A stretch of DNA of 64,000 nucleotides from Thermoplasmata archaeon (lineage in GTDB: Archaea; Thermoplasmatota; Thermoplasmata; Thermoplasmatales; Thermoplasmataceae): the NCBI GenBank assembly GCA_021797555.1, contig JAJZZM010000020.1:1-64000 (forward strand), given 5' to 3'. How positions within the stretch are numbered: the stretch's first letter is position 1; every line of letters starts with the position of its first letter. Below are positions 55,007 through 59,188 of the stretch, in pieces. Under the pieces are notes generated by a model, which saw only the letters and a list, made by a program, of their open reading frames with translations, ran no database searches and had not been told where the DNA came from. The position numbers and the translations under genes were made by a program.

Positions 55007-55383
55007 ATTTTTGATATAATTTAATAATATAAATTCATTACTATTGAAAATAATCTATAAAATGCAAAATTGTGATTTAATTCATATTGTTTTGCTTTAA
55101 TAATATGTGGATTTATGATATGTTAATGTTAGTTTGGTTAACCTTATTATACGGGTTATATCTTTATTAAGGCTAACATTGTAAATTGAATAGTGCTTCT
55201 GCCTGATTAATCTACAATTACAGTAAAATTACAGGCACTTTAGTTGTAATACATCTAAGGTGTTGCATATAATGTTCTATAAATTGCCATTTTCATCCCA
55301 CTTATAGAACTTCTGGATTTCCCTACAAGCAATGGTAAAATTAATTAAATACAATACCATGTTTGATATAATCGGTGTATGTT
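55007..55383. other. 377-base non-coding region before nadK
   Basis: No credible gene was found on either strand. It contains an inverted repeat at 55274-55310 and some short direct similarities (AATTACAGTAAAATTACAG). The last 35 bases carry ATTAAATACAATA, a possible weak TATA for nadK. The region may hold eroded insertion-sequence ends. Confidence 0.5.
55274..55310. repeat. Inverted repeat GTTCTATAA / TTATAGAAC
   Basis: Nine-base perfect arms surround a 19-base loop. A transcript would form a hairpin. IS605-type elements end in such subterminal hairpins, and a tnpB relic lies 4 kb away, but no protein remnant was recognised here. Confidence 0.4.
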
Positions 55384-56199
55384 ATGAAATTAGCAATAAT
55401 TACCAGGATAAACTGTCCATCATGCATTAAAATAGCAAAGAGGGTTATGGAATTAATACCTGATTCCTGGGAAATAATACTTGAAACAAAACTTGCAAAG
55501 GCATTGGATAAGAAAGGAGTAAACTTTAACCAGATAGATGCAGATATAATAGTTGTAATAGGTGGTGATGGCACAATTTTAAAAACTGCACAATTATCAA
55601 GGGGAAAAATACTGGGCATAAATGTTGGAGGCTTGGGATTTTTATCTGAAGTTGAAATAGGTAATATAGAGAAGTCCATATTTAATCTTATAAAAGGCGA
55701 TTATAAAACATACGATGTTATGAAACTTGAGGTTTATATTAATGATGTTTTGTTTGGCAGGGGCATAAATGATGTTGTTGTGCACACAGCAAGAATTTCA
55801 AAAATAAGGAAATTTAGTGTTTATATAAACGATAATTTTATGGAAAACACAAGTGCAGATGGCGTGATAATTGCAACTCCAATAGGGTCAACGTCATATT
55901 CATACAGTGCCGGAGGCCCTATACTGATACCATCCCTGAAGGCAATGGTAATTTCATATATAGCGCCATTTGGGTCAAGATTAAGGCCAATTGTATGCCC
56001 CGAGAGTAGCAAGATTACAATAAAAATAATAGGTAAACATAGCTCTCTGGTAATTATCGACGGGCAGAAAAATTTAATAGTAAATAGCAATGATAAAATT
56101 GACATTAAAGTATCAAATGAAAGATTAACGTTTATAGAGTTAAAAAATTCATTTTATGAACGTTTAAGGGGGAAACTGATAAAAGATGTGGTCAATTAG
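55384..56199 (+). CDS. nadK: NAD kinase
   Basis: NadK phosphorylates NAD to NADP. From ATG 55384 (not the tracked GTG) the 271 residues hold the GGDGT motif (VVIGGDGTILKT, about 62) and the NVGGLGFLSEV loop. The conserved TSADGVIIATPIGSTSYSYSAGGP segment supplies substrate contacts, and the C-terminal DGQ motif is IIDGQK. The JAMM gene starts 14 bases before its stop. Confidence 0.95.
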   Translation: MKLAIITRINCPSCIKIAKRVMELIPDSWEIILETKLAKALDKKGVNFNQIDADIIVVIGGDGTILKTAQLSRGKILGINVGGLGFLSEVEIGNIEKSIFNLIKGDYKTYDVMKLEVYINDVLFGRGINDVVVHTARISKIRKFSVYINDNFMENTSADGVIIATPIGSTSYSYSAGGPILIPSLKAMVISYIAPFGSRLRPIVCPESSKITIKIIGKHSSLVIIDGQKNLIVNSNDKIDIKVSNERLTFIELKNSFYERLRGKLIKDVVN

Positions 56200-56548
56200 G
56201 GAAAGGACATTAAAACTTATAATGGAAGCATCTAAAGATTCTTATCCGAACGAGTTCGGTGCATTCTTAAGGGCAGAAAATAATATTATATACGAAATCG
56301 CATTATTGCCCGGAACAATAAGTGGTAATGCACATGTAATATTTCAGACATATTCTATGCCCATAGATTTTACATATGTTGGTTCAGTCCATTCACACCC
56401 ATCTGGAAATACACATCCATCAGATGCTGATATACACATGTTTTCCAATACAGGGCCAGTACATATGATAGTCGGATATCCATACCGTATGAGCGATTAT
56501 TCTGTTTATAATAGAAATGGCATACCGATAAAGCTTGAGATACTTTAA
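56186..56548 (+). CDS. JAMM/MPN+ metalloprotease
   Basis: The 120-residue single-domain protein has Glu23 (NEFGAFL) and the zinc motif HSHPSGNTHPSDAD, i.e. H69-x-H71-x7-S-x2-D82, so all JAMM residues are present. Archaeal relatives remove SAMP/ubiquitin-like modifiers or process sulfur carriers. It overlaps nadK by 14 bases and ends in a four-base convergent overlap with pelA. The substrate is unknown; no SAMP gene is adjacent. Confidence 0.9.
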   Translation: MWSIRERTLKLIMEASKDSYPNEFGAFLRAENNIIYEIALLPGTISGNAHVIFQTYSMPIDFTYVGSVHSHPSGNTHPSDADIHMFSNTGPVHMIVGYPYRMSDYSVYNRNGIPIKLEIL

Positions 56549-57564
56549 TAGTTATACCTTAAAATAGCACAGTAACCGCCAAAATTCTTTATTATGTTAC
56601 CGGAATCAGTATAATTGCTTATTACATGCACATTTCCTGTTATTATATTTAATAATTCACGCGTTTCAGGCTTTTTAAAAACGTCTTCTGAAATTATTAA
56701 ATCTTCAATCATATTTTCCATTGCGTATTTTTTTATTTCATCGTAGCCATAAACACTTAGATTTGTTTTATTTAAATTTGTTAAAAATTTTTCTATTAAT
56801 TTTTCATCTCCAGCTATTCTTGATTCCTTTAATATATTTTCAGATTTTTTATCGTTCATAAATAAATAGATTCCTCTTTTGCCATTTTCTGTTTCAGGGA
56901 AATCATATATTTTTATATCCTTAAAATACGGATCCTTATTAATTATATTATACAATTTTGTATGCTCAAACCCAGGACCTAGGATTATAAATGATGATGC
57001 ATTGCTAATATTTTTTATTGTTTTTATTATATCATTGAAATATGAATTATTATTAGATTTTAATTCATAATCTTTCCCTGATTTATTTGAATGTATAACG
57101 CCTATATCCTGCAATCCGTATGATTTTAATGTTGAAATTAAGCATTCTTCATCATCCATGGATATAAAAACAATGCTATTTTTATAATAATTATTTATTG
57201 CCTCTTCAATTAATTGATATTCTTCATTGCTTAATTCTTTTATTATTATTATTTCGTCATCAGAACCTATAAATACGGACTGGTGGCTTCCTGTATTCTC
57301 GCCCTCAATAATTTCACCCAGAATTTTTAATTTGTCCGTATATGGCTGAAAATCAATTTTTTCTATTTTTAATTCAACCATTATTCTTTTCCTCTCTGTT
57401 GCCTTTGACCGATTTAATTCATCATTCTGCTCTATTCTTCTATAAACTATTACAGATATTATATCTCCTGAATTTAGTATATTTTTGAGATACCATAAAT
57501 CATCTGTGGTATCCATTTTTAATATAATTTTCGATTCTTCCCTGATATTTTTTATTATTTTCAA
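56545..57564 (-). CDS. pelA: Pelota (ribosome rescue and mRNA surveillance factor)
   Basis: Archaeal Pelota binds stalled ribosomes with aEF1A and ABCE1. The 339 residues have the N-terminal Sm-like domain (DDLWYLKNILNSGDIISVIVYRR), central eRF1-like domain 2 (FISMDDEECLISTLKSYGL) and domain 3 ending near VISNYTDSGNIIKNFGGYCAILRY. The start is TTG 57564, because the conserved strand MKIIKNIREESKIIL begins there. It follows the Mut7-C gene by 32 bases on the same strand. Confidence 0.93.
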   Translation of the reverse strand: MKIIKNIREESKIILKMDTTDDLWYLKNILNSGDIISVIVYRRIEQNDELNRSKATERKRIMVELKIEKIDFQPYTDKLKILGEIIEGENTGSHQSVFIGSDDEIIIIKELSNEEYQLIEEAINNYYKNSIVFISMDDEECLISTLKSYGLQDIGVIHSNKSGKDYELKSNNNSYFNDIIKTIKNISNASSFIILGPGFEHTKLYNIINKDPYFKDIKIYDFPETENGKRGIYLFMNDKKSENILKESRIAGDEKLIEKFLTNLNKTNLSVYGYDEIKKYAMENMIEDLIISEDVFKKPETRELLNIITGNVHVISNYTDSGNIIKNFGGYCAILRYNY

Positions 57565-57596
57565 TAACAGTGTATTAAAAAATAGAATTAAAAATT

Positions 57597-58046
57597 TTAG
57601 ATATTATTCATAAAAAAATTTATCTCCTTTTCTATTTTTTTATAATGTGAACCCTTCCAGAAGTATTTATTGCATTTTTTACAGTATTTTACTGTTTTAA
57701 AATTTGATTTTACTGAAATATAATTATTATCCATATTTTTTGAATCAACATCTATTAATTCAGAATTGCATACAGGGCACCTTGTAAAAAATTTGCTTTT
57801 ATCAGGCGGGAACATTCGTATAATTTCCTTTACCTGGTCCTCATAATTTGTGCTGTCTATAAATATTGATTTATTATATCTTTTATAGAATTCGTAATCC
57901 CTTGTTAAAAGTATTAAATCGTTTTTTATGCAGTATTTTAATATATCATTATCATCATGGCATTCCGGATATGAAATATCATAGCCCATTAACCTGAGCC
58001 ATTCACATGACCTTTTTAACATATGGTCTGCCATAAACCTATTCAT
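57597..58046 (-). CDS. Mut7-C PIN-like RNase domain protein with zinc ribbon
   Basis: The 149 residues (from ATG 58046, behind GAGGTGGGAG) show the Mut7-C pattern. The PIN-like part has FMADHMLKRSCEWLRLMGYD, the acidic DDNDIL and ILLTRDYEF, which supply the predicted metal-binding Asp residues. A zinc ribbon follows with CPVCNSEL and CKKCNKYFWKGSHY. The family is thought to degrade RNA. It overlaps the ubiX-like gene by eight bases and precedes pelA by 32, so the three appear to be one operon. Confidence 0.88.
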   Translation of the reverse strand: MNRFMADHMLKRSCEWLRLMGYDISYPECHDDNDILKYCIKNDLILLTRDYEFYKRYNKSIFIDSTNYEDQVKEIIRMFPPDKSKFFTRCPVCNSELIDVDSKNMDNNYISVKSNFKTVKYCKKCNKYFWKGSHYKKIEKEINFFMNNI

Positions 58047-58593
58047 GCTCCCACCTCTTTGATAAATCATTTTCTATATTTGATAAATCAAGAATTCTTG
58101 AAACGACAAAATTTATTAAATCATTCATTGTTTTTGGCTTATTATAATATCCCGGAACGGCAGGAGATACTATAACATTATTATTTGATAACTTTAACAT
58201 ATTTTCAATCATAATTGTACTGAATGGCATTTCCCTTGGGACTATAATGAATTTTCTTCTTTCCTTCAGTGCTACCAGTGCCACTCTGGTTATTAATGTA
58301 TCTGCTATTCCTGAGGCTATTTTTGCCATTGTTGATGTTGAACATGGAATAATCACAAATGAATCAAATATAAAACTACCGGAACTTATTCTGGCCGCGA
58401 TATCATTATCATCATAAAAATAAGTGGATAATCCCTTTATGTAATTTATATCATAATCTGTTTCTAAAGACATGACCTTTTTTGCACTTTCAGACATAAC
58501 TAAATGTATTTCATAGTTTTTAATATTTTCTAGAAATCTAACTGCAAGTAATGTCCCTGATGCACCTGTTATGCCCACAACTATCTTTTTCAT
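58039..58593 (-). CDS. ubiX: UbiX-family flavin prenyltransferase
   Basis: UbiX prenylates FMN to make the cofactor of UbiD decarboxylases. The 184 residues include the Rossmann-like start VVGITGASGTLLAVRFLE, the SESAKKVM segment, PCSTSTMAKIASGIADTLI, and the conserved FIIVPREMPFSTIMIENM. It begins the ubiX-mut7C-pelA operon. No ubiD is in the window. Confidence 0.92.
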   Translation of the reverse strand: MKKIVVGITGASGTLLAVRFLENIKNYEIHLVMSESAKKVMSLETDYDINYIKGLSTYFYDDNDIAARISSGSFIFDSFVIIPCSTSTMAKIASGIADTLITRVALVALKERRKFIIVPREMPFSTIMIENMLKLSNNNVIVSPAVPGYYNKPKTMNDLINFVVSRILDLSNIENDLSKRWEHE

Positions 58594-58621: not shown

Positions 58622-59188
58622 TCATTTTTTTCTGTTAAATACGAAATATAAAACTATCATGCCTGCTATTATGGCAGCTATTATTCCGAAATCCTCATAT
58701 TCGGCTGTTAGTGGTTTTATTGCCGGATGTGAAAATGAAAATCCAGGATAGGCTCCCGCATCCAGTGCTTTTATATTTGTGTATTTACCATTATCTACGA
58801 GCGATGGTTTATTCTCTATTTTTTCAAATGCAATTGTCATATTTTTCAGTGTTGGAGACCCCACTGAGGATAATGCAGTAATAAACTGTTCACCAAAATA
58901 ATTTAAGCCAGTATAGTTCTGGTCAAATATGATTGAATCCTGTGTTGTTACGTTTGCCCAATCAAATGTAACGTATTTCTTATTGTCTATTATATTAGAG
59001 AAAAATGTTGTCCAATCAGAACCTGTGACATTATACGATGAACATACATGGGATGTTGTGTTATTATAATAATACTGTTCCGATGGCAACGTTGATGGTG
59101 GTGCAGCCAGTGTAGGTGAGGCTGTTGATATAGCCGGAACCATGATCAAGATCAATGATAACATTATAACTATGAATATTCTTTTCAT
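58622..59188 (-). CDS. Secreted, C-terminally membrane-anchored protein of unknown function
   Basis: I do not recognise a family. The 188 residues have a signal peptide (IFIVIMLSLILIMVPAI), an ectodomain of about 135 residues with many N-glycosylation sites and one cysteine (SHVCSSYNV), and a C-terminal transmembrane helix with a basic RKK end. It is divergent from the large sedolisin gene with 136 bases between the starts, so shared control is possible. Confidence 0.75.
   Translation of the reverse strand: MKRIFIVIMLSLILIMVPAISTASPTLAAPPSTLPSEQYYYNNTTSHVCSSYNVTGSDWTTFFSNIIDNKKYVTFDWANVTTQDSIIFDQNYTGLNYFGEQFITALSSVGSPTLKNMTIAFEKIENKPSLVDNGKYTNIKALDAGAYPGFSFSHPAIKPLTAEYEDFGIIAAIIAGMIVLYFVFNRKK

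Follow-up and report, generated by a model that had tools for sequence, protein, structure and literature searches.

A Mut7-C protein gene paired with pelA in Thermoplasmatales: a candidate accessory factor of archaeal ribosome rescue

The window analysed here, a stretch of 64,000 nucleotides from a Thermoplasmata archaeon, carries three consecutive genes on its minus strand in the order ubiX, Mut7-C and pelA, each of which was identified from its open reading frame and from Pfam or NCBIfam profiles (Table 1). A previous sequence-only reading of this DNA had described the same order, with an 8-base overlap between the first two genes and a 32-base gap between the last two, and all of these features were confirmed by the ORFs and profiles. 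The region that it singled out (57564-58593) covers ubiX, the Mut7-C gene and the gap, but pelA itself lies outside. The most likely start of Mut7-C is the ATG at 58046, inside the end of ubiX, although the longest ORF opens at 58070.

Table 1. Positions of the genes and of the intergenic gap in the window, with the evidence for each.
Feature	Position	Strand	Evidence
ubiX-like flavin prenyltransferase gene	58039-58593	-	TIGR00421, 220.8 bits (cut-off 108.9)
Mut7-C gene, 149 aa	57597-58046	-	Pfam PF01927, 121.3 bits (curated cut-off 23.3), E=4.7e-35; AlphaFold2 model
Mut7-C/pelA gap, 32 bases, T-rich	57565-57596	-	Junction comparison within the genus
pelA (archaeal Pelota/Dom34), 339 aa, TTG start	56545-57564	-	TIGR00111, E=1.5e-48; eRF1_1; eRF1_3

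The TIGR00111 match of Pelota extends over the full length with 165.9 bits, slightly below the equivalog cut-off of 177.65, and the window protein is therefore a divergent member of the family. Its eRF1_1 and eRF1_3 domain matches exceeded their cut-offs, and the best PDB matches were all Pelota proteins, the nearest solved chain being 2qi2_A (E=7e-65), which we take to be Thermoplasma acidophilum Pelota.

The Mut7-C protein consists of an N-terminal alpha/beta part and a C-terminal Cys4 zinc ribbon, and its PF01927 match is full length (positions 2-145 of 146). The cysteines of the ribbon proposed in the sequence-only reading (C90, C93, C122 and C125) are present and are followed by a W130-x-G132-x-H134 motif. 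Among 60 divergent archaeal and bacterial sequences, D7, R18, D23, D32, D50, C90, C122, C125, W130 and H134 are invariant, and C93 and G132 are nearly so, each ribbon residue being found in 59-60 of the 60. D7, D32 and D50 do not vary either among 62 sequences from the window's order, and the loss of acidic residues in homologues that would have spoken against the sequence-only reading is thus not seen. A TRD motif in the protein is comparable to the TxD of PIN nucleases, and a catalytic pattern common to Mut7-C and PIN has been described (Iyer 2006, PMC1779556). The window protein thus has the full-length domain, the aspartates, the Cys4 ribbon, the W-x-G-x-H motif and the stand-alone form of the Mut7-C family (PF01927; arCOG04290), and differs from family members elsewhere in its gene context, here a pairing with pelA. 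Sulfolobus acidocaldarius and Haloferax volcanii also have members of the family.

The AlphaFold2 model of the protein has a mean pLDDT of 92.3. Both the best sequence-profile match and the closest fold match (8q66, TM 0.52) were the MUT7-C domain of worm MUT-7, in a fold search that gave no PDB match at E<=0.001. The PIN proteins 1o4w (E=0.097) and 1v8o appeared there as weak matches (E 0.1-0.4, TM ~0.3), and the PIN match by profile was weak as well (1o4w, E=0.069). The MUT7-C domain of C. elegans MUT-7 and human EXD3 (PDB 8Q66) differs from the window protein in that it is fused to an exonuclease, has zinc-finger insertions and, in the profile alignment with the worm protein, does not retain the TRD Asp. 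The 2024 study of this animal domain called its fold TOPRIM-like rather than PIN, found that it aids RNA binding, raising the affinity 6-8 fold with no activity of its own, used isolated animal MUT7-C domains as negative controls for nuclease activity and described the function of prokaryotic Mut7-C as unknown (PMC11347159). Another relative, Rv0579 of Mycobacterium tuberculosis (Ub-Mut7C plus Mut7-C), belongs to the same family and binds RNA, but has an additional ubiquitin-like domain and a bacterial context; it co-purifies with RNA, and its nuclease activity could not be measured (PMC7052010).

These properties of the animal domain, together with its place as the closest fold match, would fit a Mut7-C that is a non-catalytic RNA-binding module helping another factor to bind RNA. 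We consider this unlikely, if not to be dismissed, as the TRD Asp is not kept in the profile alignment with worm MUT-7, yet four Asp residues are kept in 60 of 60 prokaryotic sequences. Since this alignment does not keep the Asp, the negative nuclease result in animals does not test the prokaryotic site, and the conservation of the four aspartates suggests a retained catalytic site.

To what extent the gene order is conserved was evaluated in 117 genomes of the window's order, all of which were searched for both Pelota and Mut7-C; both were present in 108. Mut7-C lies immediately upstream of pelA on the same strand in 99 of these 108 genomes, which represent five of six families and 29 genera; the adjacency is missing in the four genomes of genus g7, in four from genus g4 and in the fragmented assembly G040. 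As random placement would bring Mut7-C to within ~150 bp of pelA in only about 0.1 of 108 genomes, chance adjacency was ruled out, although the 99 genomes share ancestry and are not 99 independent events. Outside the order, among genomes that have both genes, none of 81 other Thermoplasmatota and none of 91 Thermoproteota showed the adjacency. Thus, the gene-order comparison recommended in the sequence-only reading extends the adjacency well beyond a single genome and at the same time limits it to one order.

Gene maps revealed that both flanks of the pair vary. Upstream, most of family f1 has ubiX, family f5 has an MptE-like gene and families f2 and f3 have other genes; the downstream genes vary too. 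In one locus (L184), ubiX, Mut7-C and pelA are inverted as one block relative to the synteny of the window, and in another (L179) Mut7-C is gone with ubiX still beside pelA. UbiX was accordingly rejected as part of the unit, in which the sequence-only reading had included it: in other families it is missing or has given way to another gene, and in L179 it has remained next to pelA. It is a lineage-specific neighbour, confined to most of family f1, and does not belong to the conserved pair. Outside the window's own genus, most genera have a first usable pelA start that overlaps the stop codon of Mut7-C (ATGA, or ~11 to 38 bases); overlapping stop and start codons are a sign of translational coupling and imply coupled expression. 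The pelota gene itself was read as two overlapping frames in G096 (L185:6274-7196) and with one in-frame TGA each in G046 (contig C6) and G047 (contig C2), interruptions that are either sequencing errors or real.

A serious rival explanation is that the pair belongs to a housekeeping operon without functional coupling, in which Mut7-C has a general RNA role and its place beside pelA reflects one ancestral rearrangement and slow decay of operons in this order. As a baseline for gene order, the tight same-strand pairs of the window (and of the window only) were compared with one complete genome of another family (G006), where 12 of 19 testable pairs, including NAD kinase and a JAB-domain gene, are still together, so conservation of a pair between families is not rare in itself. 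The context of Mut7-C also differs by lineage (see below), and breaks of the pair are tolerated in genus g7, in part of g4 and in G040. On the other hand, the Mut7-C/pelA pair persists while the genes on either side of it change, and in another phylum Mut7-C has a second and separate linkage, to rqcH, which takes several forms. Taken together, we regard the housekeeping reading as rather improbable, albeit one to be reckoned with.

The window's own genus is one in which Mut7-C and pelA do not overlap. The gap contains a T-rich, TATA-like element that is conserved in the genus, TTTTTAAT, at 57594-57587 (minus strand), 23-30 bases before the TTG of pelA, and a T-run followed by AAT stands right after the Mut7-C stop in 7 of 7 readable species of this genus of ten. 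It is possible that TTTTTAAT is the TATA box of a leaderless pelA transcript, or else a U-rich terminator, a resemblance at the level of consensus and small numbers. Upstream of the genes in the window, TATA-like hexamers are common at -28/-29 and likewise near -44, again in small numbers, and a scan with a sigma-70 promoter model, which is unsuited to archaea, gave matches at the level of shuffled sequence. Because a separate promoter or terminator may precede pelA, cotranscription in the window's genome is inferred. The proposal of one operon is favoured by the overlapping codons of most other genera, whereas in the window's own genus the gap with its TATA-like element would allow an internal promoter or terminator.

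Beyond the window's order, Mut7-C occurs in several other contexts, which follow lineages and include RibD_C/RtcA, AMMECR1, TGase/LuxE and rpo operons. In other Thermoplasmatota RibD_C is often the preceding gene, and PAC2 and RtcA are close by; in family f36 Mut7-C comes after rpoB-rpoA'-rpoA''-rpl30e-nusA (L124, L216). Three bacterial loci have it next to rpoC, and RsfS accounts for 2 of 37 scanned neighbours. The RibD_C, rpo and RsfS contexts suggest a general connection with transcription and translation rather than one with Pelota in particular. Placement of Mut7-C inside or at the end of RNA polymerase/ribosomal-protein operons (L139:7992-14307, L121:3774-8456, L131:2-2011 and L124:2-8450) was seen in one archaeal family and three bacterial lineages.

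The partnership of Mut7-C with pelota is not obligate. Most of family f8 has pelota and rqcH and lacks Mut7-C, as families f25 and f33 apparently do too, and the control genomes of Methanocaldococcus jannaschii and Methanosarcina acetivorans have pelota and no Mut7-C. Conversely, Bathyarchaeota-labelled MAGs with Mut7-C (G297-G301; L113, L119, L122, L132, L144; one of them an unlabelled archaeon) matched the pelota profile only at the level of aRF1, which could mean that the group lacks pelota or that the MAGs are incomplete.

A different arrangement of rescue genes was found elsewhere. The NFACT gene encodes RqcH/Rqc2/NEMF, a factor of ribosome-associated quality control. In L217:11552-14457, pelA overlaps such an NFACT-domain gene (rqcH) by 4 bases, and rqcH lies directly upstream of pelA as a same-strand pair in 50 of 106 Thermoplasmatota compared outside the window's order (e.g. 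G207, G179 and G267), a pair of which we found no mention in the literature searched. In genomes with this pair, Mut7-C lies at another locus, which in some lineages is next to RibD_C. The rqcH-pelA and rqcH-Mut7C pairs of other archaea resemble the window's order in that rescue genes are coupled in one pair, and differ in that here pelA is paired with Mut7-C and rqcH lies apart, on contig C20 in the window's genome.

In whole-genome searches, Mut7-C was above the cut-off in 95 of 101 Thermoproteota genomes and is thus nearly universal in the sampled members of this phylum. Among the 93 with positions for both genes, 39 have it no more than 1.5 kb from rqcH and 57 no more than 5 kb; random placement would give about 0.25 such genomes, a comparison in which shared descent lowers the number of independent events. 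Mut7-C is directly downstream of rqcH on the same strand in ~18 genomes, and the others have one gene between the two or the opposite strand. Loci read directly show tight packing: in both L316 and L317, the start of Mut7-C overlaps the stop of the preceding gene, and its other end overlaps the gene that follows. Pfam searches placed NFACT domains in the genes upstream of Mut7-C in L316, L318, L326 and L329, and AMMECR1 downstream of it in L316 and L318. The link to AMMECR1 had already been noted for arCOG04290 ('PIN- and Zn ribbon domains'; PMC6393860). We found no report of a link of Mut7-C to Pelota or RqcH in the literature searched, most subscription papers being outside the search. Pairs occur in all combinations (rqcH-pelA, rqcH-Mut7C and Mut7C-pelA), which supports a role of Mut7-C in ribosome rescue or quality control.

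Both pairings would be explained if Mut7-C cut the tRNA of the 50S-peptidyl-tRNA complex, which is made by Pelota/ABCE1 splitting and bound by RqcH, and so released the nascent chain. Such a role would be like that of eukaryotic Vms1/ANKZF1, which release nascent chains by cutting the tRNA. RqcH is known to act on the split large subunit with peptidyl-tRNA (PMC8012679). However, Mut7-C is also found in RNA polymerase and ribosomal-protein operons, and this proposal seems to us quite improbable.

The balance tilts slightly towards Mut7-C as an accessory factor that would handle RNA at stalled or split ribosomes, in archaeal ribosome rescue and ribosome-associated quality control. A functional link of Mut7-C with ribosome rescue is likely. 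In the window's order Mut7-C and pelA would form a bicistronic unit, and in Thermoproteota Mut7-C is often linked to rqcH instead. Based on this gene linkage, the residue conservation and the predicted fold, Mut7-C would most likely be recruited to stalled or freshly split ribosomes, where it may bind the RNA of these complexes and probably cleave it through a metal-dependent Asp site (D7, D32 and D50). The substrate could be mRNA, or the tRNA of the 50S-peptidyl-tRNA complex. Placed beside pelA in one order and beside rqcH in many genomes of a second phylum, Mut7-C is a good candidate for a missing part of archaeal rescue. To our knowledge, no archaeal nuclease has been established that clears stalled ribosomes of RNA. 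The more ambitious idea, that prokaryotic Mut7-C is an ancient rescue ribonuclease serving both Pelota splitting and RqcH tailing and is a missing archaeal stalled-ribosome nuclease, is tentative and on present evidence rather doubtful.

The sequence-only reading had suggested that Mut7-C cuts mRNA at Pelota-bound ribosomes, and this is a reasonable special case of an accessory rescue factor. As an explanation of its own, it would make Mut7-C the endonuclease of archaeal no-go decay, consistent with the pairing with pelA, with the invariant acidic residues including those of the TRD motif and with the weak PIN matches by profile and fold (1o4w). Pelota itself was once reported as a nuclease in T. 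acidophilum (PMC2613156), and the later rejection of this claim for Dom34/Pelota (PMC6514570) leaves a gap that such an enzyme could fill. However, Mut7-C is not obligate with pelota, its linkage in Thermoproteota is to rqcH, whose product acts after splitting on the large subunit (PMC8012679), and no Mut7-C protein is a proven nuclease, so that we judge the no-go decay endonuclease to be distinctly unlikely.

As one phylum links Mut7-C to pelA and another links it to rqcH, a specific and testable role can be proposed for the Mut7-C family, which is common to archaea, bacteria and animals. Bacterial SmrB resembles Mut7-C in its proposed role only, namely RNA cleavage at stalled ribosomes; SmrB and Cue2 have the Smr fold, which is different from that of Mut7-C, and no homology is expected. 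For Cue2, the endonuclease of eukaryotic no-go decay, the likeness is likewise one of proposed role only, in the cleavage of RNA at stalled ribosomes (PMC9841427).

Two other features flank the three genes in the window. The NAD kinase and JAB-domain protease genes (55375-56548, plus strand) overlap by 14 bases, and this pair, for which there is no known functional link, is retained in G006, a genome of another family. Upstream of ubiX, a gene at 58622-59188 (minus strand) encodes a 188-aa protein that has no Pfam match and whose hydrophobic ends look by eye like a signal peptide and a membrane anchor; its relatives (cluster c3, 22 loci) are found at the corresponding position in almost every family f1 locus that was inspected.
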